A stretch of 40,728 nucleotides of DNA from Vulcanimicrobiota bacterium. Lineage in GTDB: Bacteria; Pseudomonadota; Gammaproteobacteria; Xanthomonadales; Rhodanobacteraceae. The position numbers were made by a program, and so were the translations under genes. The stretch lies in contig CAJCJD010000111.1 of the NCBI GenBank assembly GCA_903970555.1, positions 1-40,728 of the forward strand. The letters run 5' to 3'. Under the pieces are notes generated by a model. That model was not told where the DNA came from and did no database searches. It saw only the letters and a program-made list of their open reading frames with translations. Positions within the stretch are counted from its first letter, which is position 1. Each line of letters starts with the position of its first letter. Shown here piece by piece: positions 1,221 to 19,819 of the stretch.

Positions 1221-1249
1221 GATTCAGAGGCGAGAGTGGGTTGTCATTC

Positions 1250-1278
1250 AGGATACTCGCCACACTAGCAAGTGGCAA
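1250..1278 (-). promoter_or_regulatory. Predicted sigma-70 promoter for pilR
   Basis: Read on the minus strand, TTGCCA (1278-1273) and TATCCT (1255-1250) are separated by exactly 17 bases, matching 5/6 and 4/6 consensus positions. The site lies in the 80-base gap between the esterase stop and the pilR start. It would give pilR a promoter independent of both the sugar operon and the distant pilS. Prediction by eye only. A 7-base inverted repeat (CACACTA at 1261-1267, TAGTGTG at 1283-1289) surrounds the -35 box and could be an operator or chance. Confidence 0.45.
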
Positions 1279-1300
1279 AGCATAGTGTGTGTGCGTCGCG

Positions 1301-2377
1301 TCAACGGCCTAGGTGCCGTAGGAAGAAATGAACAATGGTTTGATAGGCCTCTTTCGATTCGGGCAATTCCGGATCGGAGAAGAAGGAATGCCACATGCCC
1401 TCCCAGACGTGCAGCTCGGTCTGCGCCCCCGCCCGGTCGAGCAGTTGTTGGCTATAGATCACCGAACTCATCGTCATGTCCCGGGTACCCGTAATGAGCA
1501 AAGTGGGTGGGAATTTGGCCAGCAGAGCCGGCGATAGTCCCGGCAAAACCAGCGGATCGGTGGGCTTGGCGCCACGGAAATAGGGGAGTTCGGTCACGCC
1601 GAGCAGGTGTGGTGGTATGCCCTGGCCATTCAGTACCGGCGCGACGTAGGACGAGTCACCCTCGATATTCGCCACTGAGCCGCAAAAAGTGCCGATAGCG
1701 CCGGGCGTCGGTAGCTTGTCCGTGATGATGCGGGCAACTGCTTCGCCGGTAAGGATGCCGCCGGCGGAGCAGCCATAGATGCCGATCTGGGCGGGTTTGT
1801 ATTGCTTGAGCAGCGCACGATAGACCGCCTCCACGTCATCACTGGCGGCGGGGAAGGTGTGCTCGGGCCCTTGCCGATAATCGACCGTGATGACTTTGAT
1901 GCGGCCAATGCTGGCGATAGGAATGGCTTCGACCAGGCCGCCGCTGTGCGCGCCCCACAGGAAAGCGCCCCCGTGCAGGTTAATCAGTACGCGATTGCGA
2001 TTTTCCGGAGCAACGCCCTGTGCGGGTAACACGACATCCGTGCCGACACCGGCGATCGTTTCGCTGTGAATCGTCACCGGATACAACTTTTGCATGCGCG
2101 CGGCGCGATCACTGTTCATGTGATCGTAGAACGCGCGGCTTTGCTCAATCGGCGCGGTGATCGGTGGCGCCTTGGCGCCTGCGGCCAACATCTTCGGGAA
2201 AAAGGCGCGCGCCTCGGGTGAGGCCACACTGGAATACGGAATGGTGAGCGCTGGCGACGTCACGCTGCCGTCGGCGTTGAATCCCGGCGATGCCGTTTGC
2301 GCTGAGGCAGTTGTACCCAGTGAAACTGCGCACAATAAAAGAGCCGATACGACATACGAAAGACGCGGTGCTTGCAT
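1301..2377 (-). CDS. Secreted alpha/beta hydrolase (HSL-type esterase)
   Basis: Predicted secreted carboxylesterase of the hormone-sensitive-lipase group, 358 aa. A signal peptide is visible (about residues 1-26, hydrophobic core then TTASAQ). The oxyanion-hole motif HGGAF is near residue 132, the nucleophile elbow GCSAGG near 202 (family consensus GDSAGG, so Cys replaces Asp), and the likely catalytic Asp and His are in GTRDMT (about 299) and MWHSF (about 328). The ATG at 2377 has a clear SD, GGGAGAAA. It is the last gene of the sugar operon, 54 bases after the trehalase. Its place there suggests it removes acyl groups from the imported or hydrolysed glucoside, for example an acylated sugar. 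That role is inference; a general esterase is equally possible. Confidence 0.8.
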   Translation of the reverse strand: MQAPRLSYVVSALLLCAVSLGTTASAQTASPGFNADGSVTSPALTIPYSSVASPEARAFFPKMLAAGAKAPPITAPIEQSRAFYDHMNSDRAARMQKLYPVTIHSETIAGVGTDVVLPAQGVAPENRNRVLINLHGGAFLWGAHSGGLVEAIPIASIGRIKVITVDYRQGPEHTFPAASDDVEAVYRALLKQYKPAQIGIYGCSAGGILTGEAVARIITDKLPTPGAIGTFCGSVANIEGDSSYVAPVLNGQGIPPHLLGVTELPYFRGAKPTDPLVLPGLSPALLAKFPPTLLITGTRDMTMSSVIYSQQLLDRAGAQTELHVWEGMWHSFFSDPELPESKEAYQTIVHFFLRHLGR

Positions 2378-2431
2378 CGTGTTTCTCCCGATCGCTTGAT
2401 GGTGTGCGGCGAAATACGCCAGCTGTTAGCA

Positions 2432-4144
2432 CTAGTTTCCAGTCGTCGCCGGTTTGGCGCTGCCGTTGAGGATTTCCTGCATTTTCAAATAAACGCCATT
2501 GGTCCAACCGAAGCCGATCACGTTCTGCGTGTATCCGGAACTCACTTTCACATCGGCGTTGCCAAGCGCCATGTTGTACTTCTCGCGAATGGTGCCGTCG
2601 GCGGCGAAGCTGCGATCGATCGTGGCGTTGAATTTGCCAGCGATGCGATGCGCATCGTCATGGAATCCATAAGCGTCCAGGCCGGATACGGCAAGCCAAT
2701 TGGTCGGCGCCCAGCCGAATGGGCTGTTCCATTGCGCGCCGCTGGGACGGTTGTCCATCGTCAAGCCGCCGGGCAGTTCAAAGATGGAAAGCTTGTCGCG
2801 AACCGCGGTGGCTTGCTGCGTTGACGCGACGCCGGCCCAGAGTGGATAGAACGTCGTGAGGTAGGGGCCATCGGACGGTTTGCCGGCAACCACATCGTAA
2901 TCGCGATACATGCCGAGCTCGGGGCGCCATAGATATTTGTTCATCGCATCTTTGCGTGCCGCTGCTGCTTGCGTCCAACGCTCGGCATCTGCGGAGCTGC
3001 CGAGTTGCTCGGCGAAATCGTGCAAGTCTTTTTCGTACCGATAGAGCAGGCTGTTCAAGCCGACTGCAGCGTAGTGATGCGTGGAGCCGCCGAACGGGCC
3101 GAAGTGGAAGTTGGTGTCGAAGCCCGATTCGCGCATGGCGCGGTCGCCACGGTAATAATCAGCTGTAAAGCGGTAGCCACCGACCCAGGCACCTGCACAA
3201 ACTTTCGACGCGCGCACGTCGCAGCTCTTCGTCTTCAATTGCGCTGCCTCAGCGTCGTTCGGATGCTCGGACGCCTTCATCAGGTATCCGGGATCTTCCG
3301 AAGGATGCGCGATCAGCCATTTGATGACGCCGAGATAAAATTCGCTGTCCTTCGCCTCCAAGACGGGGCCGTTGCCCAGGTCGTAGTAGCGGGCCAGGCC
3401 TGTGTCGCCGGCGAGATGTTCCGGGCGCGTCCAGATTTCATAGTTGCGCACGGCAAGCGGATACGCCCTTTCCAGCCATGCACGTTTTGCTGCTGCGTTG
3501 GGGAAACTGGCCGGATCGCTCAGCAGTGCCGCGATCATCGCGCTGAGGAACGGCGGCTGCGACCGGCTCAGGTAATAGGTGCGATTCGCATTGAGCACGC
3601 CACCGTAGTACTGCACTTCGAACAAAGCGTTGTCGACCATGTTGCGCGCCAGATCGACGCGATGATCGGCGAGCAGGCCGAGCATGATGAAGTAGCTGTC
3701 CCAGCCATACATTTCGTTGAAGAAGCCGCCCGGCACGACATAAGGATGCGGCAGATAGAGCAATCCCTGCGTGGCAAGCGTGGTCGCATCGATATCGCCC
3801 AGCTTTTCGATCGGATGCGGCAGCGTCCGTATATCCACGTTGCAACGTTTTCCCACTTGAGTGAGTTCCGTCGACAAGGGGAACTGCGCCGGCACATACA
3901 GCACGGGACGAGTAGCGACCTTGCTATCGGCCAACGAGGCGCAGTCGTCCATGGAGCGGGTCAGCGTGCTCCACGCCTTGTCGATGTACGCACGTGTCTT
4001 GGCGGCATCGGGCTGCGCCGCGGAAGCGGTGGCAACAAGCGTCGACGATACGATCAGGCTAGCCACACGCGACTTGATGTGAAGAGGTGTCGCCCGGCGA
4101 GAATCGGCAGCATTTCCGTGCGCAGAGCATTTTGGACTTTTCAT
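2432..4144 (-). CDS. treA: Periplasmic trehalase, GH37
   Basis: Hydrolyses alpha,alpha-trehalose to two glucose molecules in the periplasm. The protein is 570 aa, the usual length for periplasmic GH37 enzymes. Both trehalase signatures are present: PGGFFNEMYGWDSY (about 136-150) and QWNSPFGWAP (about 468-478). The catalytic acid is probably the Asp in RESGFD (about 339), and the base the Glu in REKYN (about 521). An export signal with a long n-region lies at about residues 25-45 (VASLIVSSTLVATASAA). The ATG at 4144 is supported by a GGGGA SD six bases upstream. The gene sits between a GH65-like gene (66-base gap) and the esterase (54-base gap), apparently in one operon. Signatures make GH37 firm; activity on other alpha-glucobioses is not excluded. 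Confidence 0.92.
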   Translation of the reverse strand: MKSPKCSAHGNAADSRRATPLHIKSRVASLIVSSTLVATASAAQPDAAKTRAYIDKAWSTLTRSMDDCASLADSKVATRPVLYVPAQFPLSTELTQVGKRCNVDIRTLPHPIEKLGDIDATTLATQGLLYLPHPYVVPGGFFNEMYGWDSYFIMLGLLADHRVDLARNMVDNALFEVQYYGGVLNANRTYYLSRSQPPFLSAMIAALLSDPASFPNAAAKRAWLERAYPLAVRNYEIWTRPEHLAGDTGLARYYDLGNGPVLEAKDSEFYLGVIKWLIAHPSEDPGYLMKASEHPNDAEAAQLKTKSCDVRASKVCAGAWVGGYRFTADYYRGDRAMRESGFDTNFHFGPFGGSTHHYAAVGLNSLLYRYEKDLHDFAEQLGSSADAERWTQAAAARKDAMNKYLWRPELGMYRDYDVVAGKPSDGPYLTTFYPLWAGVASTQQATAVRDKLSIFELPGGLTMDNRPSGAQWNSPFGWAPTNWLAVSGLDAYGFHDDAHRIAGKFNATIDRSFAADGTIREKYNMALGNADVKVSSGYTQNVIGFGWTNGVYLKMQEILNGSAKPATTGN

Positions 4145-4210
4145 GTCAGTTCCCCATTCGGTGCGATCGACGACGATGGAAGCACGATGTCGGTCGCGTG
4201 GTGCAATGAT

Positions 4211-6466
4211 TCATAACGCGTGACGAGTCAGTGTCACTTTCCCTTGGGCGTCACGCTGGATGGCGATGTCGTAACGTTCGCCGCGGAAAGAAACATGCTT
4301 GAACGTCAGCGCTTTCCAATCCGCCGGAAGCATGGGTGGATAAGCCTGGACTAGGCCTTGCTCCTCGATCCGTAGCCCGCTGAATCCATAGATGAGATTC
4401 TGCAGCAGGCCGCCACTCGCCGTTGCGAAATACCCAGTGTTGTTGGTGGCCGTTTCGGTGCGCACGTTGAACGGCGGTTTCAGCACATGGGCAATGAGGT
4501 TGTGCTGGAACCAGTCGCCTGCATCGCCAGTGTTGCCCGAGGTGGAAGCTGCGACGGACAAAGGCGTGAAGCCCATGCTGTTTGGGTCACGATGCGATTG
4601 TTCGATGGGAGCGATCGCGTATTTGTAGTCGCGTTCGCGTACGTCCGCGCTCATTGGCATATCGAGCGACGGATAGGAAAGCATTGGCAGCGAACTTCCG
4701 CCCCACGAATCGATGTCATGTGCGACGGATTCATCGAAATCCAGGTAGTGCCCGTCTTTGGCGGAGAAGGGGATGTATAGCTGCTTGGCCACATCGGCCC
4801 AGTGTGGGTCGGCCTCTTCACCCACGATCGCTGCAGCTGCCGACGCTATCTCCAGCGCCTTGCGTGCCGATGCATTGGTGAACGTATCGTTGGGTACATC
4901 GTTATAGTCTTCGTCGACAGACGTGACATGCTGGATCTCATATCGCTGCTTGGCCGCCACATAGGTGGCGCGGCTGGCCCAGAAATCAGCGACGGCCCGG
5001 ATCACCGGCCAGCCGTGATGAACAAGCCAGTCGCGATCATGCGTCGCGAGGTAGTACTGCCACTGCGCTATGGCGATGTCCGCGTTGACGTGGATCTCGC
5101 GTTCGTCCAACACCCAGGCGAAATGCGGTGTCTGCGAGCTTCCGTTGTCCGGGTCGGCTTCCCATGGATACATCGCGCCGCGCCATCCGCGTTGGTGTGC
5201 GCGTTGCTCGGCCTGGTGCAAGGTGCTGGAGCGAAACATCACCAGCGACTTGGCGCGTTCGGGATGAAGCAGAAGCAACGCGGGAAATACCCACGAATCG
5301 CTATCCCAGAAAACATGTCCGGTATATCCAGGCGTCATCCCGCATGCGCCGATCGGCCACGACGTATCGGGCGTTGAATTCGACAACAGGTAATAAAGAT
5401 CGGAATGCACGATCTGTTGAGCCTTGGCATTCCCATCGATCACGATGTCCGATTGCCACAATGCATGCCAAGCGTTTTCGTGTTCGGCAAGCGCATGATC
5501 GAAGCCTGCATTCCGCGCGGCGGTAGCCAGCGCGAGATCCTGCTTTGCGTCGCCGCCCCAGCCGTCGCGGGACGCAGTGACATATTTAGTGAAGGTATAG
5601 GTCTGGCCCTTATGGACTTCGACGCGAAGATTCAGTGCAAGGCGATAGTCATCCTTGTAGAGCTTAGCGTCGCTGACATGTATGCCTTGCGGTAATGCAA
5701 CGGCTACCGCTTCGGCCATGCCAGCACCTTGTTCGGCGCGCCCATCCAGCCACAATGTAAGCGCGCCGGTGTCGCCATCGTTGGCGAGCACGTGCGTATC
5801 GCCGTGGTACCAGAGTGGCGCACGGTCGGGCGTGGCGGGCGGTATCGGTTGCAGCTTCAGATTGTTTGCCGCAACTGCTTCCTGCATCTGTGGGCCGTCC
5901 AGTTTGCCGAGCGGGAAACGCGGCTGATGAGGCGCCCACAGATTGAGCGCAAAAGACAAGTCGATCTCGCCATCGAAATCCGGGGTGATCGTCAACTGAT
6001 TGACGGCCAGATGAGGCGATGCCTGACTGACTAGCGTCCGCACGTTGATATCGGTCGACTTGCGTCCATCGACGTAGCGATAACTTGTGGTCAGAACGCC
6101 GTTGTACATGTCCAAGGTCTGGCGATAGTTCTGAAAACGAGTCGGACCGATATCCACCTGATTGAGCCAGAACTGTCCTGCCTGCGATGGGCCTGTGCTG
6201 TAGTCGATCTCGATCCAGCCGGGAATCGCTGCGGGTCGCGAGATATCGCCCTTGGCGTAATCCATGAAAGCGACCATGTAGGCAAGATTGCCTTCGGTGC
6301 CGCGTGGCGCAGTCATGGTTGAGAAATAACCGTTCGCGAGCTGGCCCGGGAAGTAGGCGTTGAGATCTTGCAGGTTGGCAGTGAGCAGGAAACTGGAATC
6401 GGATGCGGCACAAGCTCGACCGGCCATCAGCGCCAGACACGCCAACACGACTCGTGAGGTTGTCAC
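4211..6466 (-). CDS. Secreted GH65-family glycoside hydrolase-like protein, copy A
   Basis: Predicted exported GH65 (acid-trehalase/kojibiose-hydrolase-like) protein, about 751 aa. GH65 landmarks are GHVFWDSDSW (about 384) and VTSVDEDYNDVPN (about 517), the second carrying the candidate acid Glu where phosphorylases have VTGPDEY. The phosphorylase phosphate-site motif KQADV is not seen, which favours hydrolysis. I chose the GTG at 6466: it has SD AGGGGA six bases upstream, gives a compact signal peptide (MTTSRVVLACLALMAG then RACAAS) and starts 19 bases after the methyltransferase stop. An ATG at 6499 is in frame but overlaps that gene. It is a paralogue of the product at 9180-11426, sharing blocks such as AYMVAFMDYxKxDISRPAAI. 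Substrate specificity cannot be read from sequence. Confidence 0.85.
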   Translation of the reverse strand: MTTSRVVLACLALMAGRACAASDSSFLLTANLQDLNAYFPGQLANGYFSTMTAPRGTEGNLAYMVAFMDYAKGDISRPAAIPGWIEIDYSTGPSQAGQFWLNQVDIGPTRFQNYRQTLDMYNGVLTTSYRYVDGRKSTDINVRTLVSQASPHLAVNQLTITPDFDGEIDLSFALNLWAPHQPRFPLGKLDGPQMQEAVAANNLKLQPIPPATPDRAPLWYHGDTHVLANDGDTGALTLWLDGRAEQGAGMAEAVAVALPQGIHVSDAKLYKDDYRLALNLRVEVHKGQTYTFTKYVTASRDGWGGDAKQDLALATAARNAGFDHALAEHENAWHALWQSDIVIDGNAKAQQIVHSDLYYLLSNSTPDTSWPIGACGMTPGYTGHVFWDSDSWVFPALLLLHPERAKSLVMFRSSTLHQAEQRAHQRGWRGAMYPWEADPDNGSSQTPHFAWVLDEREIHVNADIAIAQWQYYLATHDRDWLVHHGWPVIRAVADFWASRATYVAAKQRYEIQHVTSVDEDYNDVPNDTFTNASARKALEIASAAAAIVGEEADPHWADVAKQLYIPFSAKDGHYLDFDESVAHDIDSWGGSSLPMLSYPSLDMPMSADVRERDYKYAIAPIEQSHRDPNSMGFTPLSVAASTSGNTGDAGDWFQHNLIAHVLKPPFNVRTETATNNTGYFATASGGLLQNLIYGFSGLRIEEQGLVQAYPPMLPADWKALTFKHVSFRGERYDIAIQRDAQGKVTLTRHAL

Positions 6467-6485
6467 GCAGGGTCCCCTGGTGGCA

Positions 6486-7289
6486 TCAAGGACGTACATG
6501 GGTGGCGTGCGCCGGCAACAAGTCATCGGTGGAAATACGGATCCATGCCGTGCTGTTCTGGCTCCTTGGTGCCTTTTCGACGAGATGCACCAACTGGAAG
6601 CTGGACTTGTCGACCAGCTCATCCAGTGCTGTCAGTTGATCGCCGTCGAGGCCATGACGTAGCACTGCCGGAATGCGCTTCGCATTCAACATACGTATCA
6701 GATTGTCAAGCATCCAATACGACGGAAGGTAAGTCGACGCGCTGTCGATATAAATGGAAGATGTCGCGTTCATATGCGGAAGATACGCGCCAAGCAACGG
6801 AATAATGGTATTGGGTGCGTGATTGAAATCCGAAAATAGCAAATCGATTTTCTGCTCCTGCGCTACCGCATCTACAGCACGCGCGTGGAAGCCGATATCG
6901 CCTTTGGCGAATTGGACCCTATCGGCAACGTCAGCATGATCGAAGATCCATGCCATGCATTCTTCGTAAGAGCCCGCCTCCGACAGCCGCGCGAGGTCAT
7001 GTAATGGCCCGGTAAGCTGCGAGAGAAACGCGCGGACGGATGCGTCTTGAAAGTGGCTGCCGTTGTCGAATGTATAAATGCGACCATCGCCAAGTTCCTT
7101 CAAAGCCGAAGCCACCCAGACGGTACTCGCTCCGAAACCGGTGCCCAGCTCAACCACCACGCGCGGTTGTTCGCGTCGCACCATGCTGTAAAGAAGCATG
7201 CAAAGATCTTCGCTTCCATACACCGGTCCCAATTGATCCCGCATTGCAAGGAGGCAATCAATGTTTTGCTTGATGTTCCATGCCTGCAC
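6486..7289 (-). CDS. Class I SAM-dependent methyltransferase-like protein
   Basis: 267-aa predicted cytoplasmic protein with a Rossmann methyltransferase core. The SAM-binding glycine motif VVVELGTGFGAST is at about residues 45-57, a following acidic strand end is in IYTFDNGSHF, and IDLLFSDFNHAP fits the later strand with its acidic residue. It resembles the Methyltransf_24/cephalosporin-hydroxylase-like group, in which the true chemistry is often unknown. The start is a GTG at 7289, supported by a strong SD (AGGAGA six bases upstream). It follows the TPR/oxygenase gene by 50 bases and precedes GH65 copy A by 19, so it is embedded in the sugar operon. No signal peptide is seen. Its acceptor is unknown; the oxygenase next door suggests a shared modification, but this is inference. 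Confidence 0.75.
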   Translation of the reverse strand: MQAWNIKQNIDCLLAMRDQLGPVYGSEDLCMLLYSMVRREQPRVVVELGTGFGASTVWVASALKELGDGRIYTFDNGSHFQDASVRAFLSQLTGPLHDLARLSEAGSYEECMAWIFDHADVADRVQFAKGDIGFHARAVDAVAQEQKIDLLFSDFNHAPNTIIPLLGAYLPHMNATSSIYIDSASTYLPSYWMLDNLIRMLNAKRIPAVLRHGLDGDQLTALDELVDKSSFQLVHLVEKAPRSQNSTAWIRISTDDLLPAHATHVRP

Positions 7290-7339
7290 AAATCTCTCCT
7301 AGGCCGTGTGAATGCGAATATCTCGATACGTCGTCATGC

Positions 7340-9154
7340 CTACAGCTGCGGCACTACGTCGAAGGCCACCGTAAGCCGGTTCTTATCGCTATGGAAAGGC
7401 ACCGTCCCGTGCCAGAAATACGAAGGAAACAACACCAGCCTGCCTGGCTCTGGACGCACTACGTGCTGGGCGTGCAAGGGTGGCTTTGTGGCGATGCTGG
7501 GTTCGCCGAATGCAAGGCATCCATCCTGCGTTGAGGCTTGTGCCATGCCATCGGGCAAATCGACGTAGAACGCAGAGGAGATCCAGCCGCGCGGATGCAC
7601 GTGACTGGCATGGTAGCCCGCACTTCGCAATCGCACCGACCAGCCGCCGTTGAATCGGTACGCTCCACGGTTGCGACGGCGCAATGGGTCGGCGCCATTG
7701 CCGATGAAAGCAAGATAGTCACGGATTGGTGCGTCAAGCGCCTTGAACAAGGCCTGGATGACAGGGTCTGTTTCGCGCGTGAGGTCACCTGTGGTTTCCG
7801 TGCCGTGGCGCAGCGACTGGAACAGCAGCGGATGACCGTGTGGATTGTGCAGGCGTTCGAGGCTTTGTTTTAGATCGCTGAGGAAGCTCGTTAGATCCGG
7901 CCACGGTGACGGTGCTTGCAATAAGTAAGGGCGCACCCATTGCGTGTAATTGCAAAGCGCGTCGTAGCGCTCATCGCCGAGCAGTCGCCATGCTGTGGTT
8001 TGCAGAGCCACCAGGTATTGATCATCCGGCGCGCCAGACAACAGTGCCTCGCAGTGGCGTAGTGCGTTACTTGCATCGCCGACACCTAACAAGGCAGCGG
8101 CCAGCAGGTTTCGCGGCGCAGTCGCAGAAGGGGATCGTTGCAGCGCGCGTTCCGCCAAAGTCAGCGCAATAGTCGGATCGAATTCCAGTGCGGCAAGCCC
8201 AGCCCGCACCAACAGAGAGGGTGTTGCTTGCGCGCGCGCCGCCAAGGCTTCAAGGCACATGTAGGCGCCGCGCGCATCGCCGGCGCCCTGCAGGATGGCT
8301 GCCTTCGCGGCGAGCAATGCTTCCTCCCCCTGAAATGTCTGCAAGGCCTGGTCGAGCGTTGCAGTGGTTTGCGTGCTGTCGCCCGTGCGCATCCATATCA
8401 GCCGCGCGAGATGATTGTGCGCATCGATATGGCGTGGTTCCTGCCGAAGGCATTCGCGCAGGGACGCTTCCGCACGTTCGAACTCACCCAGCGCGATCAG
8501 GCTGTTCGCATGGGTGAAATGGACGGCCGCTGTCTTGTGTCCTCGCGCGAGCGCGTGCTGAGCGGCGCGTTCGGCATCGGTGTGCTGGGACGCCGCAGCC
8601 AAGGCAATAGCCAGTGCATGCGCCGCAGCAGGATTGTCGGGCGACGCTTCGGCCAGCTTGCTGTAAAAAGTGACGGCTTCCGCGTGGCGACCTAGCGCGG
8701 CAAGCGCAGTGACGTGTTGTGTGGCTAGCTCCGCGGGTGCCTGTCCCGAAGCGCACAGCGGGGCGACGATGGTCAGTGCATCGGCTGGACGCTGTTGATC
8801 GTTGTAATAGCGCGCGAGCAACAGCGCCGCGTGCGGCATGCGCTGGGCTGCTCGTTGCAGCAGCGGTATCGCCTCATCCTGGCGTCCGCTGTTTAGCAGC
8901 AACTCACCGAGTGTTGCCAGCGAGGGTGCCCAACCAGGGTCGGCGGCCACCGCTTTGCGCAAGAGCGCTTCAGCGCCCTCGCTATCGCCGAATGCCTGTC
9001 GAACGCCACCGAGCAGGCGCAATGCTTCCGCATAGTCAGGATGCTGTTCGACGATTATCTGGAGCCGGTCGTGCGCACCGCGAAAATCACCCGTTTGCAA
9101 CAGCGTGCCAACATGCCGCATGGCGTCTAGAACGGTGGGCGGTAAGTTGGACAT
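7340..9154 (-). CDS. TPR protein with C-terminal 2OG-Fe(II) oxygenase domain
   Basis: 604-aa predicted cytoplasmic protein. Residues 1 to about 400 form a run of tetratricopeptide-like helical repeats rich in Ala and Leu (for example DYAEALRLLGGVRQAFGDSE), a protein-binding scaffold. The C-terminal region (about 490-604) matches the putative 2OG-Fe(II) oxygenase family (PF13759-like). It has the iron-binding pattern YHASHVHP near 512-518, a distal His in FPSYFWHGT near 583, and the 2-oxoglutarate-binding Arg in KNRLTVAFD. A hydroxylase acting on a protein or small molecule is expected. It lies between the two GH65 paralogues, 25 bases after copy B. No clear SD precedes the ATG. Similar Fe(II) oxygenases accompany TBDR loci in Xanthomonadales and Caulobacter, but their substrates are unresolved. 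Confidence 0.8.
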   Translation of the reverse strand: MSNLPPTVLDAMRHVGTLLQTGDFRGAHDRLQIIVEQHPDYAEALRLLGGVRQAFGDSEGAEALLRKAVAADPGWAPSLATLGELLLNSGRQDEAIPLLQRAAQRMPHAALLLARYYNDQQRPADALTIVAPLCASGQAPAELATQHVTALAALGRHAEAVTFYSKLAEASPDNPAAAHALAIALAAASQHTDAERAAQHALARGHKTAAVHFTHANSLIALGEFERAEASLRECLRQEPRHIDAHNHLARLIWMRTGDSTQTTATLDQALQTFQGEEALLAAKAAILQGAGDARGAYMCLEALAARAQATPSLLVRAGLAALEFDPTIALTLAERALQRSPSATAPRNLLAAALLGVGDASNALRHCEALLSGAPDDQYLVALQTTAWRLLGDERYDALCNYTQWVRPYLLQAPSPWPDLTSFLSDLKQSLERLHNPHGHPLLFQSLRHGTETTGDLTRETDPVIQALFKALDAPIRDYLAFIGNGADPLRRRNRGAYRFNGGWSVRLRSAGYHASHVHPRGWISSAFYVDLPDGMAQASTQDGCLAFGEPSIATKPPLHAQHVVRPEPGRLVLFPSYFWHGTVPFHSDKNRLTVAFDVVPQL

Positions 9155-9179
9155 CGGTTCGTGTTGTTTGTCGAAAGGG

Positions 9180-11426: not shown

Positions 11427-11471
11427 GAAAGCTCCAGCAATGACGCGTTGCAATCTCCAGCCCTGGCAACG

Positions 11472-12737: not shown

Positions 12738-12845
12738 GGTAACCAGCCTACCCGAGTGAATGCGTGGTCGAATACATGGTTGTCTCCGTCGCGGTTGATA
12801 CGTGGGCCACGCATGGCAGGACTAACTTTACAACTCACGCGATCA

Positions 12846-12884
12846 GGAAAATCCATGGCCGGGTGTCTTCACACCCGGCCATGG
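12846..12884 (-). terminator. Intrinsic terminator after the sugar-operon TBDR
   Basis: A perfect 14-base stem (12853-12866 with 12871-12884, core CCATGGCCGGGTGT) encloses loop CTTC and is followed on the minus strand by ATTTTCC. It lies 46 bases beyond the TBDR stop. The short T-run suggests partial termination, which would attenuate expression of the seven genes downstream relative to the phosphorylase and TBDR. Apart from this hairpin and a nine-codon ORF (see findings), I see nothing recognisable in 12738-12929. Confidence 0.65.
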
Positions 12885-12929
12885 GTGCCCCAGGGAGGGG
12901 AGGGCGATTAACGCTGGAGCAAGCAGTTC

Positions 12930-15476
12930 TCAGAAGTTGTACTTGATCTGACCTTGAACCTCGCGGCCCATGATGGATCGAGCCAGGATCACGCCATTGG
13001 TGCTGGCAAAGCCAAACAGACGCGCATTGCCTTCGGTGATGCCGATCTGGTTGGTCATGTTGGTGCCGTTCACGCTGTACACCCAGTGCTGACCGACATT
13101 GGCGGCGAAGAAGAAGCTCAGATCGTAGTAATTGCCTAGCGGCTGCTGTTCGATCAGGTCGCCGTAGCGGTTGCCCACGTATTCGTAAGTGATTCCTCCA
13201 CGCAAGCTGCCCCAGCTGGTCGGATAGGTGTAGGCCGGTGTGATACGGAACTGCACTCTAGGCTGACGCTGCAACACCTTGCCGTACATGCTGGCGAACT
13301 CGGTCGCGCCCGATTGCGCGGTAAATTCCTGCAGGCCCGTGTTGCTGTAGTGGCCGTCCATGTAGTCGCCGCTCAGTGCGATCGTGAAGTTTTCGAACGG
13401 CTTGAACGTCGTCGATAGGTTCACACCCTTGGTGTTGGTGCCGTAAACCAGCGAGATCTGCTGGCCCTGCGGGTCGGTATAGGTGTACGGCACGCCGTAG
13501 AACAGGCGATGGTAGGCGCTGACATCGACATACACCCAGTCGGCCTGATACTTGAAGCCGATTTCCTGGTTGTGAATTTTCTCCACCGGAACGCTACCAG
13601 GATACGCACCGCGTAGATCGTCGAAGCCAGGGAAGTGCACGCCATCATTGGCGCGAATATATGCACTCATGTTCGACGTGAACTCGTAGTTTGCGCCGAC
13701 GGTCCATGACGGCGCGCTCTTGCGGTAGTTGATGTAGTTCAAGCCGGGCGCAAAAACATTCGAGCCGTTGTTGTACAGCGTGAACGGATTGTTATCGAGA
13801 TCGGCGGTCGTGGTGTTCTGAATACCGCCGCTGGCCTGTTCCCGCTCCTCGCGGATGCCGGCGTCAAACAACCAGTTGTCCAGCTTCCAGCTGTCGGTCA
13901 GGAAGAATGCGGTGTTGAAGCCGTTCCAGCGTTCGTAGATCGCGGTACTCGGCCCGCTGACGAAGCCTTGGTTGCTGCTCAACTGGTACGTGTTGGCGCC
14001 GTCGGCGAGGTCGACCACGATCGGGTTTGGATTGCTGATCGCCTGCAGCAACATGTTGTTGCCCAGGTACCACGTGTCGTGATCGTTGTAGACCGTGGTG
14101 AAGTTGCCCAAGGTCAACGTGTTGCCGTCAAACAGTTCCTTGCTGATGTGGAATTCGTTGCTAATCGCCGCGATACGCTTGTGTACGTACCACAAGCCTT
14201 GCGTGGTGACGTTCTGGTTTAGGTTTGCCGCTTGCCCATTGGTATAAGTGGCCGTAACGGGAAGGCCGGCCGGCAAGCCGTCGGCAGTTTCCTGGCTAGA
14301 TATGTAACTACCCAGCGTCGTTGGATTCGCTCCGGTGCTGAAGAACGAGATGGTATTCATCTGGCCGCCGGTGAAATTCAACTTGTCCGACAGCGACCAG
14401 CCATTGCCGAAGTCCCAGTCGAAGTTGCCGCCATACATGCGTATATTGCTACCACGGCCCTTCGCCAGGTTCAGCGGAATGCTGCCAGGAGTACAGCCTG
14501 CTGTATTGCAAGGCGAGACCTGGATGCTTTCATACTGATCGGCCTTGCTGCTGAACGTTCCGTAGAGCGGATCGAATCCGGGGTATGGGGAAAAGTCGCC
14601 TTTGGTCGGATTGAGAATGGGTGTGTCGGTCACGAACTGGTTGTGATCTTTAATCGCGCGCGCGTAGAACATCAACGAGCCGCTATCCCAGTCGCGTGTC
14701 AGCGTGGCAGAAAGGGAGCCACCGTTATCGGCGGGGAATTGCGCATCGCGATAGTCGTCACGCCGATACCAGCCGCCGAAGCTTCCATACCAGTTGTTGG
14801 CAACCTTGAACCCAACGAAGCCATCAATTCGCTGCAGGCCATCGGAGCCAGCCGTATAGCCAATATCACCGGAAGGTACGTCGGTACCTTGCTTCTGGAT
14901 GAAGTTTGCCGTAACGCCCGGCTGGCCGGTGCCGTAGAGCACCGCCGGGCCGCCTTGCACGATTTCCACGCGATCAATCGTGTCGTCGGGAATGCGCATC
15001 AACGAAGACTGATCCAGGAAGGACAGCGCCATCGGATAGAGCGGCGAGCCGTCGATCTGGAAGGTTACGTAAGGTGCATCGCCGCCGCCCGGGAAGCCCG
15101 CGACTTCGATATTCGCGCCCGTCTGGCCGCCAGATGATTCCGGAAAGACGCCCGGAGATTGTTTCAGCAAGTCGGCAGCGCTTATCGGGTTCGCTTCCTT
15201 GATCTGCTGAGAAGACATGGAGGTGATCGAATAGGCTGCATCGATCTTCTTCACGCCGCCGAACGTCGCAGTACCGGTCACGACGACCTGCTGCAAGGTC
15301 GACGCATTTTTGGCATTCGCCGCTTGCTGCGCGCCGGGGCTTGTGGGTGCCGTTGTGGTGGTCGAACTTTGAGTGGGCGTCGTCTGACTGGTTTGCTGCG
15401 CATACACAGTGCCGGAGATCAGCGTTGCCGCGATCGCCCCCGGTAGTGCTAAACGAGTTAAGTGCTTGCTGTTCAT
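12930..15476 (-). CDS. TonB-dependent outer-membrane receptor of the sugar operon
   Basis: About 848 aa. It takes up substrate across the outer membrane using TonB/ExbBD energy. A signal peptide (about 1-25, ending GTVYAQQ) is followed by a low-complexity Thr/Ser/Gln linker (about 26-65) and a TonB-box-like segment VVVTGTA. Then come a plug domain (for example DDTIDRVEIVQGGPAVLYG) and a long 22-strand-type barrel ending in the expected terminal aromatic (QGQIKYNF). The ATG at 15476 has a strong SD (GGGGAGAA). It lies 68 bases after the GH65-phosphoglucomutase fusion and is followed by a terminator hairpin. Next to glucoside-degrading genes it fits the carbohydrate-utilisation TBDR pattern known in xanthomonads. 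The actual ligand is inferred only from context. Confidence 0.9.
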   Translation of the reverse strand: MNSKHLTRLALPGAIAATLISGTVYAQQTSQTTPTQSSTTTTAPTSPGAQQAANAKNASTLQQVVVTGTATFGGVKKIDAAYSITSMSSQQIKEANPISAADLLKQSPGVFPESSGGQTGANIEVAGFPGGGDAPYVTFQIDGSPLYPMALSFLDQSSLMRIPDDTIDRVEIVQGGPAVLYGTGQPGVTANFIQKQGTDVPSGDIGYTAGSDGLQRIDGFVGFKVANNWYGSFGGWYRRDDYRDAQFPADNGGSLSATLTRDWDSGSLMFYARAIKDHNQFVTDTPILNPTKGDFSPYPGFDPLYGTFSSKADQYESIQVSPCNTAGCTPGSIPLNLAKGRGSNIRMYGGNFDWDFGNGWSLSDKLNFTGGQMNTISFFSTGANPTTLGSYISSQETADGLPAGLPVTATYTNGQAANLNQNVTTQGLWYVHKRIAAISNEFHISKELFDGNTLTLGNFTTVYNDHDTWYLGNNMLLQAISNPNPIVVDLADGANTYQLSSNQGFVSGPSTAIYERWNGFNTAFFLTDSWKLDNWLFDAGIREEREQASGGIQNTTTADLDNNPFTLYNNGSNVFAPGLNYINYRKSAPSWTVGANYEFTSNMSAYIRANDGVHFPGFDDLRGAYPGSVPVEKIHNQEIGFKYQADWVYVDVSAYHRLFYGVPYTYTDPQGQQISLVYGTNTKGVNLSTTFKPFENFTIALSGDYMDGHYSNTGLQEFTAQSGATEFASMYGKVLQRQPRVQFRITPAYTYPTSWGSLRGGITYEYVGNRYGDLIEQQPLGNYYDLSFFFAANVGQHWVYSVNGTNMTNQIGITEGNARLFGFASTNGVILARSIMGREVQGQIKYNF

Positions 15477-15544
15477 CGATCGTTCTCCCCAAACGGTTTT
15501 TGTAAATGTTCGCGTGGCGTAAACCACGTCTGCTGTTGGCCGCG

Positions 15545-18500
15545 TTACGTCTTGAACAAGCTGATGTCGAACGCGGCGACGTTCGGCAACAGCACGTCTG
15601 CTCCGGCCAACGCTTGCGCGTGACCAATTCCCACCGCTTTCATTCCAGCCGAGTGGATGCTGGCAATGCCCGCCGCGGCGTCTTCCACGCCGAGACATTC
15701 GCTCGGTGCCAGACCGAGGCCGCGCGCAGCGGCCAGGAAAATTTCGGGATAGGGTTTGGCGCGACGAATGTGGTCGGCGTTGACCACGTAGTCGAACAAA
15801 TCGGCGATGCCGAGTTTTTCCAGCAAAAGAGGTGCGTTGCGACTGGCCGAGGCCAGTGCCGTTTTCATGCCCGCGCGGCGAACCGACTCGATCGCGGCAC
15901 GCGCGCCGGGTAAAAGGTTCTGCGGCCCAAAGCCTTCGATCTGCTGCCGGTAGTAGTCGTTCTTGCGTGTCGCCAGCGCTTCTTTTTCTGGTTCGGCGTA
16001 AGGGCGCGAGGCTTTTTCCAGCAAAATGTCGAGCGAAGCGCGCCGATCGACGCCCTTGAGGCGCTCGCCTACGCTGTCATCGAAAGGAATGCCGATATCG
16101 GATGCGAGTTTTTTCCACGCGGCGTGATGTACCACCGCTGTGTCGGCAATGACCCCATCGAGATCAAAAATGACCGCCTTCAACGCGCCAGGCGTTGATG
16201 AGGCGGTCTGCAGGGGAAGATGGATGGATTGTCCCACGCGCAACAGCAGCGGTTGGCTGTGATGAAGTATTTCGGCCTGTGTGCCTTCGGTAAGCGCGTA
16301 TTCGACGCCGCTTTTGCTGACCGACACGCGGATGTGCGCATCCTGCCAACGCAAGCCGAAGCGATAACTCTTCCAGGCATCGGGAAGGGTCGGTGCAAAG
16401 GCAGGGCGTCCGTCCACGGGGCGCATGCCGCCGAAGCCCCACGTTAGCGCGAGCCAGCTGCCGGCCATGGCCGCCATGTGCACGCCGTGCGAAGTGTTGC
16501 CGTGTAAATTGTCCAGATCTACCCGCAGCGTGTCGAGGAAGTAGCGGTACGCTTTGTCGGCATAACCCACTTCCGATGCGACGATGCTGAAGGTCGAGGC
16601 CGACAGCGTGGAGTCATGCACGGTGACGCCTTCGTAGTAATCGAAGTTGCGTCGCTTGCTGTCTTTATCGATGGCGTTGCCGGCGAGCACAAAGGCTTGC
16701 AGTACGTCGGCCTGCTTGCACACCTGATGACGGTAAATGGTCAACGGATGCATCTGCAGTAACAGTGGGCGATGCCCTTGCTCGCTGGAATGTGAGACGG
16801 GCAGCCGCGGTTTATCGAGAAAGTCGTCGTCTTGCGGAAAGATGCCGAGCGCCGGGTCCACGGGCAGATACATAGCATCGGCAGCGGCAAGCCACGCAGC
16901 GATTTCTTTTTCGGAAAGATGGATGGCTGTTGCGATGCGTGCGTATTCCGCCGGGCGCTCATGCGCCAGTTGCGCAGCGATCACGGCGGCGTAGCGCAAA
17001 TGCTGCTGCGCCATGTGATTGGTGTAGTAGTTGTTATCGACGAGCGCCGTGTATTCGTCCGGACCGGTGACTTGGCAGATGCAGAATGCATTATCGCGTC
17101 GCGGGTTGTAATAGCCGACGTTGTGCCACAGGCGCGCGGTTTCGAAGAGTGCTTCGGCGCCACCGTGGGCGAGAAAATCCGTATCGCCGGTGGCATCGAC
17201 ATAAAGCCGTATCGCAAAGGCGATCGCTGCGTTGATGTGATATTGCGCCGAGCCCGAAGGGAAATAAGCCGAGCATTCATCACCGCTGATCGTGCGCCAG
17301 GCGTACAGCGCGCCGACGGGGTGATTCATCTCTCGCGCATGGGCGCGGGCACGATCGAGCGTGTGCACGCGGTAGTCGAGCATGCTGCGCGCCTGCTCCG
17401 GCGAGGTCAGTGCCAGCACGGGCAGGATAAAGGCTTCGGCATCCCAGAAGTAATGGCCTTCATAGCCTTCGCCGGTGAGGCCCTTCGCCGCGGCGCTACC
17501 GCTGCCGTCGCGACCGGTCGATTGCAGCAGATGAAACAGGTTGAAGCGCAGCGCTTGTTCGATGGCCGGGTCGCCGTCGATCATCAGGTCGGCTTCTCGC
17601 CAGAACGCGGCGCAGGCGCGTGCCTGGTTTTCGCGATGAGTATCGAAATCCTGCGTCAGTGCCTGCCCTAGCGATGTCGACATGGCGTTGAGCAATGATG
17701 TTTCCGTGTCTCCGCCACCCGGTAGGCTCCAGGCGTAGGCAACGTACTTTTCCAGCACGACGCTTTGGCCTGGCTGCAGATCTGCGGTGTAGTGCTGCTG
17801 CACACCTTGGCCGTCTTCGATGATGGCGCGGGCGAAAACGAGGCCCGATGCCGACGGCAGGCGATGACGCTGGCCGCTGGCGAGACGGATGTGGCTGTTC
17901 TGTGTGCGCTGGCAGATCGATGCCAGAAGCTGGTCCGAGTCGGCCGCCGTGATGCTCAAACCACCCGCTACGCGCGCGCCGATGCGCGGGTCGTCGCCCT
18001 GCTCGGCGGCAGTGTTGCTGGCAATCAGGGCCGATTCGAGAGTGATCGGGCCGCTGTAGTCGATAGAGGTGACGCGGTAGCGGATGCACAGCAAATTCGG
18101 CGTGTGCAGGGGAACGATCCGCTCCGCGTCGATCTGCAAGGTAACGCCAGTGGGAGAGCGCCATTGCAGAGTTCGTTGCAATGAGCCGGCGCGAAGATCC
18201 AACGCCTGCTCGAAGTGCAGCCATTCGCCCTCGTCGAGGTCGACGAGGGTTTCACCCAAACGCAGGCCGATGCGGGTGCCGTCCGGGGCGGGGATGCGCG
18301 TATCGGTCGTGCGGGCAAAACCGGGGAAGCGTTCGTGGTACTCGATCGGGGTGCGTTCCCAGACGCCGGTCAGGAAGCTGCCTTGAGTGGGGCTACGTCC
18401 TTCTTCCAGGCCGCCGCGCACACCCAACGATCCATTGGCCAGCGCGAAGAGGCTTTCGAGCTTGGCTTGCTCGTCGTAGCTGGGGCGATGCGCATGCACA

Positions 18501-18589
18501 AGCCGCCAGGGATCGACGGATGCCTGGTGTGCCGCATCCTTGGCGTAGGTTGGCGCATCGTGGCTGTGCACGCTTTCTCCCCTTGGCAT
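15545..18589 (-). CDS. Fused GH65 disaccharide phosphorylase and beta-phosphoglucomutase
   Basis: Bifunctional cytoplasmic enzyme, 1014 aa. Residues 1 to about 790 are a GH65 phosphorylase with HYFWDAEAFILP (about 379), the acid Glu in VTGPDEY (about 506) and the phosphate-site motif KQADV (about 625). These features separate it from the two secreted GH65 paralogues. GH65 phosphorylases release beta-glucose 1-phosphate from maltose, trehalose, kojibiose or nigerose. Residues about 800-1014 are a HAD-family beta-phosphoglucomutase: FDLDGVIADT with its two catalytic Asp, LKGVDRRASLD, ALASASRNAP and GVEDAAAGI. This half would make glucose 6-phosphate. Fusion keeps product and consumer together. 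It is the first gene of the operon, with SD AAGAGAAG before the ATG and a palindromic operator about 50-80 bases upstream. Which disaccharide is used cannot be decided from sequence. Confidence 0.93.
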   Translation of the reverse strand: MPRGESVHSHDAPTYAKDAAHQASVDPWRLVHAHRPSYDEQAKLESLFALANGSLGVRGGLEEGRSPTQGSFLTGVWERTPIEYHERFPGFARTTDTRIPAPDGTRIGLRLGETLVDLDEGEWLHFEQALDLRAGSLQRTLQWRSPTGVTLQIDAERIVPLHTPNLLCIRYRVTSIDYSGPITLESALIASNTAAEQGDDPRIGARVAGGLSITAADSDQLLASICQRTQNSHIRLASGQRHRLPSASGLVFARAIIEDGQGVQQHYTADLQPGQSVVLEKYVAYAWSLPGGGDTETSLLNAMSTSLGQALTQDFDTHRENQARACAAFWREADLMIDGDPAIEQALRFNLFHLLQSTGRDGSGSAAAKGLTGEGYEGHYFWDAEAFILPVLALTSPEQARSMLDYRVHTLDRARAHAREMNHPVGALYAWRTISGDECSAYFPSGSAQYHINAAIAFAIRLYVDATGDTDFLAHGGAEALFETARLWHNVGYYNPRRDNAFCICQVTGPDEYTALVDNNYYTNHMAQQHLRYAAVIAAQLAHERPAEYARIATAIHLSEKEIAAWLAAADAMYLPVDPALGIFPQDDDFLDKPRLPVSHSSEQGHRPLLLQMHPLTIYRHQVCKQADVLQAFVLAGNAIDKDSKRRNFDYYEGVTVHDSTLSASTFSIVASEVGYADKAYRYFLDTLRVDLDNLHGNTSHGVHMAAMAGSWLALTWGFGGMRPVDGRPAFAPTLPDAWKSYRFGLRWQDAHIRVSVSKSGVEYALTEGTQAEILHHSQPLLLRVGQSIHLPLQTASSTPGALKAVIFDLDGVIADTAVVHHAAWKKLASDIGIPFDDSVGERLKGVDRRASLDILLEKASRPYAEPEKEALATRKNDYYRQQIEGFGPQNLLPGARAAIESVRRAGMKTALASASRNAPLLLEKLGIADLFDYVVNADHIRRAKPYPEIFLAAARGLGLAPSECLGVEDAAAGIASIHSAGMKAVGIGHAQALAGADVLLPNVAAFDISLFKT

Positions 18590-18628
18590 TTTCTTCTCTT
18601 CGGCCCGTGGGGCCTGTCGTTGGGGCGG

Positions 18629-18657
18629 AGCATAAAAGCGAATGATATCGATATCAA
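18629..18657 (-). promoter_or_regulatory. Predicted promoter of the sugar operon
   Basis: On the minus strand, TTGATA (18657-18652) and TATGCT (18634-18629) are separated by 17 bases, 5/6 and 4/6 consensus. The -10 box lies 39 bases before the start codon of the GH65-phosphoglucomutase gene. The -35 box falls inside the double palindrome at 18642-18671, so a bound regulator would block RNA polymerase. Prediction by eye. Confidence 0.6.
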
Positions 18658-18671
18658 GATATCGATATCAT
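18642..18671. promoter_or_regulatory. Double palindromic operator, probable LacI-family binding site
   Basis: Two copies of the 12-base palindrome GATATCGATATC (18644-18655 and 18658-18669) are separated by AA. Together they form one larger inverted repeat with 14-base perfect arms (18642-18655, 18658-18671). The left copy extends to a perfect 14-mer, TGATATCGATATCA. The central CG is typical of LacI-family operators. It lies between the divergent lacI-type gene and the sugar operon and overlaps the predicted -35 box, as expected for repression relieved by an inducer. Two sites 14 bases apart centre to centre could bind two dimers. Confidence 0.75.
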
Positions 18672-18802
18672 ATGCGGCGACGCATCATTTTCAGCTCGTT
18701 CGCGCATAGGCAATGTCAACCGATTGGACGAAGCGGTAACCGCAGGCCACACTTGCCGCGTTAGGTATCGCATCCGCCCATCGCCGCTTCGAGGGCCGCC
18801 TT

Positions 18803-19816
18803 TTGACGCACGCCAAGAAAAAACAGCCCCTTGCGCATCGCCCGAGCCTGACCATGGCGGATCTGGCGGAGTTGGCGGGTGTCTCGAAGATCACCGTTTC
18901 GCGAGCGTTGAGCGAAAGCCCGCTGGTTAATGTCGAGACCCGGGAACGCGTGCAGGCGCTAGCGCGCAAGCATGGGTACAAGTTGAATGTCAGCGCCCGC
19001 AATTTGCGCTTGCGGCGTAGCCACACGGTAGCCGTGATCGTGGAAATGAAGCCTTCCTCGGGCCGCACCATGTGGGACCCGTACCCGCTATCCCTGCTCG
19101 GCGGTATTTCCCAGGAACTGACTTCGGCCGGATACAGCGTGCTGTTGACCACCCGCCAAGGCGCGGCGGATGCGTCGGTGCAGGCGGCCGATGGCCTGAT
19201 CCTGCTGGGCCAAGGCGTTCGCCAGGATGCCGTGCGTCTCTACGACAAACTCGGCATGCCAATGGTGGTTTGGGGTGCGGCAGCTCAAGGCGGCGACAAC
19301 CACATCGTGGTCGGCAGCGATAACCGTCAGGGCGGTATCAGTGCAGCCGAGCGTTTTCTTTCCATCGGGCGACGCAATCCGGTGTTTATCGGCAACCCCG
19401 ATCACCCGGAAATGGCGCAGCGTCTGTTCGGTTTTGTCGACGAGCTGGCCGATCACGGCATCAAGCCGCTGCTGTTGCGTCGTGCTGATTTCACGCTGGA
19501 ATCGGGCGTTGATGCGGTGCGTTCGCTGCACAGCCGCAAGGTGCGCTTCGATGCGATTTTTGCTTGCAGCGACTTGCTGGCAATGGGCGCGATCCGCGCC
19601 TTGACGGAGCTTGGGCAATCGGTGCCGAACGATGTATCGGTGATCGGCTATGACGACACGCCGCTAGGCGCGACTTTCCTGCCGCCGTTGAGCACGGTGC
19701 GCCAAAACTGGCAGGAGGGTGGTGTGCTGCTGGCGCGCAAGGTATTGGCGTTGATCCATGGCCAGCCGGTGACGTCGCAGATCATGGCGACGACGCTGGT
19801 GGTGCGATCAACCTAG
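18803..19816 (+). CDS. LacI-family transcriptional regulator of the sugar operon
   Basis: 337-aa repressor-type protein. The N-terminal helix-turn-helix and hinge are clear: MADLAELAGVSKITVSRALS, then VNVETRERVQALARKHGY. The periplasmic-binding-protein-like effector domain follows, including ADGLILLGQG, FDAIFACSDLLAMGAI and VPNDVSVIGYDD. I place the start at a TTG at 18803 because GAGGG lies six bases upstream. An internal ATG at 18854 would start right at the helix-turn-helix and truncate the usual N-terminal tail. The gene is divergent from the sugar operon and faces the double palindrome at 18642-18671. Its stop is only three bases from the pilS stop (convergent). The likely inducer is the disaccharide or a breakdown product such as glucose or a glucose phosphate; this is inference. 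Confidence 0.92.
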   Translation: MTHAKKKQPLAHRPSLTMADLAELAGVSKITVSRALSESPLVNVETRERVQALARKHGYKLNVSARNLRLRRSHTVAVIVEMKPSSGRTMWDPYPLSLLGGISQELTSAGYSVLLTTRQGAADASVQAADGLILLGQGVRQDAVRLYDKLGMPMVVWGAAAQGGDNHIVVGSDNRQGGISAAERFLSIGRRNPVFIGNPDHPEMAQRLFGFVDELADHGIKPLLLRRADFTLESGVDAVRSLHSRKVRFDAIFACSDLLAMGAIRALTELGQSVPNDVSVIGYDDTPLGATFLPPLSTVRQNWQEGGVLLARKVLALIHGQPVTSQIMATTLVVRST

Positions 19817-19819
19817 GTT

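Follow-up and report, generated by a model that had tools for sequence, protein, structure and literature searches.

Loci devoted to sugar uptake in Xanthomonas and Caulobacter bring together a TonB-dependent receptor, a permease and a LacI-type regulator, and the layout in which a phosphorylase joins these three is likewise a known kind of sugar locus. In Escherichia coli, the ycjM-W cluster encodes the kojibiose phosphorylase YcjT, the beta-phosphoglucomutase YcjU and the LacI-type repressor YcjW. The present work describes an operon of related layout from a soil bacterium of the Dyella group of Rhodanobacteraceae. The operon occupies positions 1301-19816 of a stretch of 40,728 nucleotides of contig CAJCJD010000111.1 (hereafter the window, whose numbering is used), and its proteins were scanned with Pfam and NCBIfam profiles. 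On balance, the locus appears to be a LacI-controlled operon for the uptake and catabolism of a trehalose-centred sugar, whose periplasmic enzymes would cut back trehalose-type sugars that are modified or extended. Searches of the open-access literature revealed no account of the operon; what is new is the enzyme set and its active-site changes, whereas the layout is already known.

The receptor, permease and LacI-type regulator are thus held in common with the Xanthomonas and Caulobacter loci, while the enzyme set differs. The likeness to ycjM-W lies in the clustering of a GH65 phosphorylase, a beta-phosphoglucomutase and a repressor gene, yet the E. coli enzymes are separate, are accompanied by ABC transporter genes and differ in their specificity residues from the fused enzyme described here; the annotated ycjM-W stretch contains neither a TonB receptor nor GH65 or GH37 hydrolase genes. 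The present operon consists of a divergent lacI gene on the plus strand and nine genes in a single minus-strand run, from 18589 down to 1301, in the order GH65-beta-phosphoglucomutase fusion, TonB receptor, permease of the major facilitator superfamily (MFS), GH65-like A, tetratricopeptide repeat (TPR)/2-oxoglutarate (2OG) oxygenase, methyltransferase, GH65-like B, GH37-like protein and esterase. Intergenic gaps are short or absent, except for 192 bases between the receptor and permease genes. The presence of the operon is confirmed, all parts lying in the sequence at the coordinates below, and since the same set recurs in many relatives it is not a product of chance. The features that carry the argument are the following.

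18803-19816, plus strand: LacI-family regulator (PF00356, PF13377), transcribed divergently from the operon and presumed to be a local repressor; the TTG start is uncertain
18643-18670, no strand: predicted tandem LacI-type operator, two abutting 14-bp palindromes with 0 and 1 mismatch to the consensus TGATATCGATATCA
15545-18589, minus strand: cytoplasmic GH65 phosphorylase fused to beta-phosphoglucomutase (PF03632, 373.8 bits; TIGR01990, 228.6 bits, cut-off 189.4)
12930-15476, minus strand: TonB-dependent receptor (PF00593, PF07715) with a signal-like N-terminus; start set at an internal Met, the longest open reading frame starting at 15698, inside the fusion gene
11472-12737, minus strand: MFS permease (PF07690, 109.8 bits)
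9180-11453, minus strand: predicted secreted GH65-like hydrolase A, with both catalytic residues (acid and base) and without the Lys-Gln of subsite -1; best fold match FjGH65A (7fe3)
4211-6490, minus strand: predicted secreted GH65-like hydrolase B, paralogue of A (58% identity); start uncertain, the longest open reading frame extending to 6622
2432-4144, minus strand: secreted GH37-like protein (PF01204, 322.8 bits); catalytic Asp kept, canonical catalytic Glu missing
1301-2377, minus strand: secreted hormone-sensitive-lipase-type esterase, GCSAG subfamily (NF058650, 512.1 bits, cut-off 410), with a signal-like N-terminus

An initial annotation of the window had named the receptor, both GH65-like proteins, the esterase, the permease, the fusion and the regulator, all of which are present; its gene list was correct in these entries, and overlooked the oxygenase and the methyltransferase. 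Its picture of a single locus, with a receptor in the outer membrane, a permease in the inner membrane, glycosidase-like enzymes in the periplasm, a cytoplasmic phosphorylase-mutase and a LacI regulator, agrees with the gene families found.

A hydrophobic N-terminal stretch with a cleavage-like site is present in the window's esterase, GH37-like protein, GH65-A, GH65-B and receptor, and a simple hydropathy test detected no signal-like N-terminus in its fusion, oxygenase, methyltransferase or LacI protein. Among homologues, the hydrophobic stretch occurs in 31/35 esterases, 30/37 GH37-like proteins, 26/34 GH65-B and 61/73 GH65-A proteins, compared to 5/51 fusions and 0/24 oxygenases; the test is crude and involves no trained predictor, and the five fusions pass it too. 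From the gene order, families, signal-like N-termini, catalytic and phosphate-site residues, operator sequence and core/accessory structure observed in the sequence, we infer the identity of the sugar, the directions of transport, the repression and the activity of every enzyme as follows. A sugar of trehalose type, probably one that is extended or modified, would enter the periplasm through the TonB receptor, and there the secreted GH65-A and GH65-B (as inverting hydrolases), the GH37-like protein and the esterase would trim it. The MFS permease would import the core disaccharide, which the cytoplasmic fusion would phosphorolyse to glucose and beta-glucose-1-phosphate, and the mutase half would form glucose-6-phosphate. 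In the absence of the sugar, LacI would act at the tandem operator and keep the operon repressed.

The fusion retains the residues expected of a phosphorylase. In an alignment of 51 fusions, the phosphate-site residues are Lys and Ser in 51/51 each, Thr or Ser in 51/51 and His in 49/51 (with two gaps); Trp, Asp, Lys and Gln of subsite -1 and the general acid Glu are kept in 51/51 each, and the beta-phosphoglucomutase half of the window's protein scores above the TIGR01990 cut-off. De Beul et al. 2021 (PMC8537180) describe a GH65 specificity motif at CsKP positions 64, 392, 394, 402, 416 and 585, which reads TRIGPP in trehalose phosphorylases, EEAPxx in kojibiose phosphorylases, KV[MF]NES in maltose phosphorylases, FAITQA in alpha-1,3-oligoglucan phosphorylases and DQGQDE in trehalose-6-phosphate phosphorylases; subgroups 2 and 3, among others, are listed there as uncharacterised. 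The fusion reads T-R-I-A-P-H or T-R-I-A-P-P, depending on the alignment, and thereby matches four or five of the six positions of TRIGPP, a fit exceeding that to every other published motif. Arg at 392 (51/51) and Ile at 394 (49/51) are firm and agree with TRIGPP. Trehalose is therefore the best single guess for the fusion, which is predicted to be of trehalose phosphorylase type, although this is no proof. The initial annotation had offered kojibiose, nigerose or maltose as further substrates, a suggestion that is not borne out for the phosphorylase, whose specificity residues fit trehalose phosphorylase best; a kojibiose phosphorylase in particular was rejected, position 392 being Arg, not Glu, in all 51 fusions.

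Like GH65 trehalose phosphorylase (EC 2.4.1.64), the fusion has the phosphate-binding residues, an intact glucose subsite, and agreement at four of the six specificity positions (T-R-I and P, of which two were assigned by eye). It differs in being fused to beta-phosphoglucomutase, in having mostly Ala for Gly at 402 and, depending on the alignment, His or Pro at 585, and in its occurrence in Gram-negative bacteria; the tree presented in one review shows GH65 only in Gram-positive bacteria (PMC10969515).

The two secreted GH65-like proteins belong to the other side of the family. In a tree of the kind proposed with the initial annotation, they fall among GH65 hydrolases, and the fusion among GH65 phosphorylases: A and B form one clade on a long branch (1.54; support 100/100), on the hydrolase side that also holds FjGH65A, human PGGHG and, from loci L115 and L116, two distant family relatives of about 35% identity. 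The tree holds few characterised sequences and drew long-branch warnings (FjGH65A, hPGGHG, BsGGP and others), the order of the nearer outgroups of the A/B clade is weakly supported, and the midpoint root served for drawing only. The acid and base Glu (E472 and E616 of FjGH65A) are kept in 73/73 A and 34/34 B proteins each. The base column is also Glu in CsKP, a phosphorylase, so that this column alone cannot part hydrolases from phosphorylases, whereas the phosphate-site columns do. In the DPNEMMM stretch of GH65-A, Glu stands in 73/73 proteins where phosphorylases have one phosphate-site Ser; GH65-B has Ser, Thr or Gly.

The principal change in these proteins concerns the glucose-binding subsite. 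In FjGH65A, Trp343, Asp344, Lys538 and Gln539 bind glucose at subsite -1, and Nakamura et al. 2021 (PMC8626586) describe these residues as completely conserved among the GH65 hydrolases they aligned, including fungal acid trehalases and PGGHGs. A (73/73) and B (34/34) retain Trp and Asp, yet the Lys-Gln pair is absent in all aligned A and B proteins, a result on which three alignment modes and a profile alignment concur. The Lys538 column holds Met (69), Phe (3) or Trp (1) in the 73 A proteins, and Gly (27), Asp (3), Ala, Gln, Thr or a gap (1 each) in the 34 B proteins; the Gln539 column is Gly in all 73 A proteins and Gly (23), Asp (9) or Ala (2) in B. The region fell in a gap in the first alignments and was realigned with two closer relatives; a KQxD-like string occurs in 1/73 A sequences, outside the column. 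Since the relatives in L115 and L116 keep Lys-Gln, its absence belongs to the A/B clade.

These residues bear on the possibility that the operon is a kojibiose or alpha-1,2-glucoside system, in which A and B would act as alpha-1,2-glucosidases like FjGH65A and feed glucose or kojibiose inward. A and B share with FjGH65A and MmGH the fold, the acid and base Glu, a signal-like N-terminus and Trp391-Glu392 of subsite +1 (73/73 and 34/34). The GH65-A model (mean pLDDT 78) matches FjGH65A best, with a TM-score of 0.81 over the target and 0.71 over the query, and the kojibiose hydrolase model NF053734 is the best NCBIfam model for both proteins. Its scores, however, are 352.6 bits (A) and 372.2 bits (B), against a cut-off of 800; Lys538-Gln539 is replaced by Met-Gly in A and mostly by Gly-Gly in B, Thr407 and Trp473 of FjGH65A are kept in neither, and the fusion has Arg at 392, where kojibiose phosphorylases (EEAPxx) have Glu. 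A kojibiose system is thus considered unlikely.

The GH37-like protein departs from its family in a comparable manner. GH37 is described as a trehalase family only, for which five trehalase motifs are given, in the review cited above (PMC10969515). The fold and sequence of the protein match GH37 trehalases, its model being closest to those of yeast and E. coli; the RSQPP core of motif 3 and the catalytic Asp (D343) are kept in 37/37 aligned proteins. These features are shared with E. coli TreA and yeast Nth1, yet in 36/37 proteins the Arg of motif 1 (PGGRF) is replaced, that of motif 4 is His, motif 5 reads EKYN for EKYD, and the column of the canonical catalytic Glu, which we take to be E. 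coli E496, is Tyr. In pairwise alignments, Tyr (with E. coli) or Gly (with yeast) occupies this position. The replacement residues are themselves conserved (Gly537 in 37/37, His347 in 36/37). The sole protein with Glu is encoded at 9196-10905 of locus L111, which also carries a GH65-B homologue; it has 32% identity and retains PGGRF, the motif-4 Arg and EKYD. Being canonical at every altered position, this homologue serves as a positive control. No NCBIfam trehalase cut-off was reached by the GH37-like protein (best 221 of 941 bits). The label 'GH37 trehalase' of the initial annotation was accordingly rejected, what remains being a family match, and caution is advisable with automatic 'trehalase' annotation for this GH37 group. 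Asp531, acidic in 34/37 proteins, could be a relocated base; the model (mean pLDDT 73) is unsure in the active-site loops, and the structure therefore cannot settle the position of the base.

It could be argued that the operon serves plain trehalose, with A, B and the GH37-like protein all acting as periplasmic trehalases, redundant with import and phosphorolysis. The trehalase-like fold and RSQPP core of the GH37-like protein and the trehalose phosphorylase-like fusion agree with this. Yet the catalytic Glu and the two motif Arg residues (motifs 1 and 4), which the L111 exception retains, are missing from 36/37 GH37-like proteins, and A and B lack two subsite -1 residues that are fully conserved in the fungal acid trehalases and PGGHGs aligned in PMC8626586, which makes this explanation improbable, somewhat more so than a kojibiose system. 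The same absences, together with the accessory, patchy occurrence of the genes, would also be expected if the periplasmic enzymes were decaying, functionless paralogues. Such decay seems very improbable, given the open frames, the presence across many species, the retention of both GH65 carboxylates (73/73 and 34/34) and the conserved replacements, namely Gly in 73/73 A proteins and Gly537 and His347 in the GH37-like proteins.

The trehalose-centred reading accommodates these changes differently. Because some residues with which well-characterised relatives bind or cleave glucose are absent, the periplasmic enzymes may act on an unfamiliar, modified sugar. Tentatively, and as a possibility well short of an expectation, GH65-A, GH65-B and the GH37-like protein may form a matched periplasmic set for a trehalose-type sugar that is acylated, methylated, otherwise substituted or built on a non-glucose glycone; among GH65 hydrolases, A and B would then be the first whose glycone subsite is built for something other than plain glucose, and among GH37 members the GH37-like protein would be the first with a relocated base (perhaps Asp531) or a non-trehalase function. 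In the list of characterised GH65 enzymes given in PMC8537180, every one is active on alpha-glucosides. An acyl-trehalose, as raised in the initial annotation, is compatible with the altered -1 subsite of A and B and with the esterase, the sole hints in its direction. That canonical active-site residues are missing from the GH65 as well as the GH37 members of a conserved operon, but not from its cytoplasmic phosphorylase, points to a natural sugar yet to be recognised; the operon also supplies a short list of candidate enzymes.

The tandem operator precedes the fusion gene. Of 44 intergenic regions between lacI and the fusion gene, the window's own counted, 32 contain the 10-mer GATATCGATA. 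The genome itself (247 contigs, 91.7% complete) contains no further operator site at up to one mismatch, and 23 further sites at two mismatches; a wider regulon was thus rejected, and the regulator is predicted to be mainly a local repressor. No NCBIfam equivalog cut-off was reached by the LacI protein in the NCBIfam scan. Sites at up to one mismatch are found in 8 of 12 selected relatives, three of which (G135, G038, G124) have single one-mismatch sites elsewhere too; none occurs in G017, G031, G069 or G083, although G069 carries the fusion gene. A reversed control pattern matches in one relative genome (G125). Sigma-70-like matches overlap the operator, but as 9 were found in positions 1-19900 against 7.5 +/- 2.6 expected, they are no evidence by themselves. 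Local LacI-family regulators of trehalose genes, such as ThuR, have been predicted elsewhere (PMC4052901).

The distribution of the genes separates a core from accessory parts. GH65-A has matches at E <= 0.001 in 84 of 147 sampled genomes of the family, 13 of them weak only (best E no better than 1e-57), and 71 family genomes, the own included, have a strong match to GH65-A or its paralogue B. In wider samples, at stricter thresholds, GH65-A was found at E <= 1e-60 in 1 of 321 sampled genomes of the class (the own genome) and at E <= 1e-50 in 2 of 398 of the phylum, both of the host family. The fusion is wider spread, with 4/398 phylum genomes at E <= 1e-150, the own included and the other three outside the family; an alphaproteobacterial plasmid carries a relative of 50% identity. 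The nearest named record to GH65-A is a metagenome-assembled genome of Lysobacterales (96% identity), followed by Dyella and Rhodanobacter species. Among cultured Dyella, D. flava and D. lipolytica have the related loci L035 and L037. All three GH65 matches of the own genome lie inside the window; for PF01204, a single marginal match (21.1 bits, against a cut-off of 21; E 2e-4) exists apart from the GH37-like gene.

Eighty-five related loci were compared, the window not among them; since 78 were fetched with GH65-A as the query (seven were chosen for having no strong GH65-A), the counts over-state GH65-A and the genes tied to it, and many loci are truncated, either at a contig end or at the limit of the 10-kb flanks. 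Only neighbours checked by profile scans were relied upon, automatic open reading frame picks often being on the wrong strand in high-GC DNA. GH65-A is present in 76 loci, the receptor in 70, the permease in 61, the fusion in 57, LacI in 56, the esterase in 46, the GH37-like gene in 42, GH65-B in 37, the oxygenase in 23 and the methyltransferase in 2. GH65-B is accompanied by GH65-A in 35/37 loci, and the oxygenase in 23/23. Where a strong GH65-A is missing, the loci form a graded series. Of this gene set, L161 and L162 have nothing but LacI, fusion, receptor and permease; L158 and L160 have these four and the esterase, and L157 and L159 the four with the GH37-like gene and the esterase; L156 has the fusion and no other operon gene. 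The four genes also stand together in three loci outside the host family (L164, L168, L170). The phosphorylase pathway, with its regulator, receptor and permease, is thus the core, to which the periplasmic enzymes are exchangeable additions.

In L168, from another family, LacI, fusion, receptor and permease are followed by a protein related to one in L111 that has no Pfam assignment, and then by the esterase. These related proteins of about 660-700 residues (48-54% identity; L164 17649-19628, L111 970-3039, L168 5735-7843) appear secreted by eye and, in two fusion loci, stand where the GH65/GH37 enzymes would otherwise be. Those from L164 and L111 were scanned and reach no Pfam cut-off, and the L164 protein has a weak Protein Data Bank match (E 0.019) to an amylo-alpha-1,6-glucosidase. 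In L170, an open reading frame at 6077-7078, glucokinase-like by eye, adjoins the permease, and would suit a release of free glucose in the cytoplasm.

Several observations weigh against the trehalose-centred reading. In the fusions, position 402 is Ala (44), Ser (5) or Gly (2), compared to Gly in the published trehalose phosphorylase motif, and 585 is Pro in one alignment and His in another, the latter placing the control LbMP as published. Thr 64 and Pro 416 were placed by eye; automatic alignments gave Glu and a gap, and misplaced LbMP too. Moreover, 26 of the 76 loci with GH65-A have no fusion (some are cut by contig ends), and genome G005 has A and B with no fusion match at E <= 1e-150, so that the periplasmic enzymes need not act on the sugar of the fusion. 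The GH37-like protein, finally, may be inactive.

Three further features lie within the operon.

12853-12884, minus strand: strong hairpin 3' of the receptor gene, between receptor and permease, 14 pairs of which 10 are G-C
7340-9154, minus strand: TPR protein with a C-terminal 2OG-Fe(II) oxygenase domain (PF13759), no signal-like N-terminus, between the two GH65-like genes
6486-7289, minus strand: Methyltransf_24 protein (PF13578, 55.6 bits), accessory, between the two GH65-like genes

The hairpin is a possible partial terminator giving different expression levels; 27 terminator-like sites were found in positions 1-19900, against 17.4 +/- 4.9 expected. The oxygenase could target a protein or a sugar of the pathway. 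The two related loci with the methyltransferase gene are L034 and L075; in the latter its position is different, with pilS on one side and the regulator on the other, and the gene may therefore be a mobile addition.

A link to trehalose apart from the fusion comes from four divergent loci, in which a member of a trehalose synthase-like group adjoins GH65-A or lies within about 2.3 kb of it (L091 3655-5829, L098 1886-4105, L099 5518-7668, L103 12229-14481). All four have signal-like N-termini by eye; one was scanned against NCBIfam (TIGR02455, 899.8 bits, cut-off 719.4), and the other three were assigned by blast clustering. These genes possibly encode a periplasmic maltose-trehalose isomerase. 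GH92 genes are also present in L099 and L103, the former having a GH31 gene as well, for which reason the trehalose synthase-like loci may serve other glycans as well.

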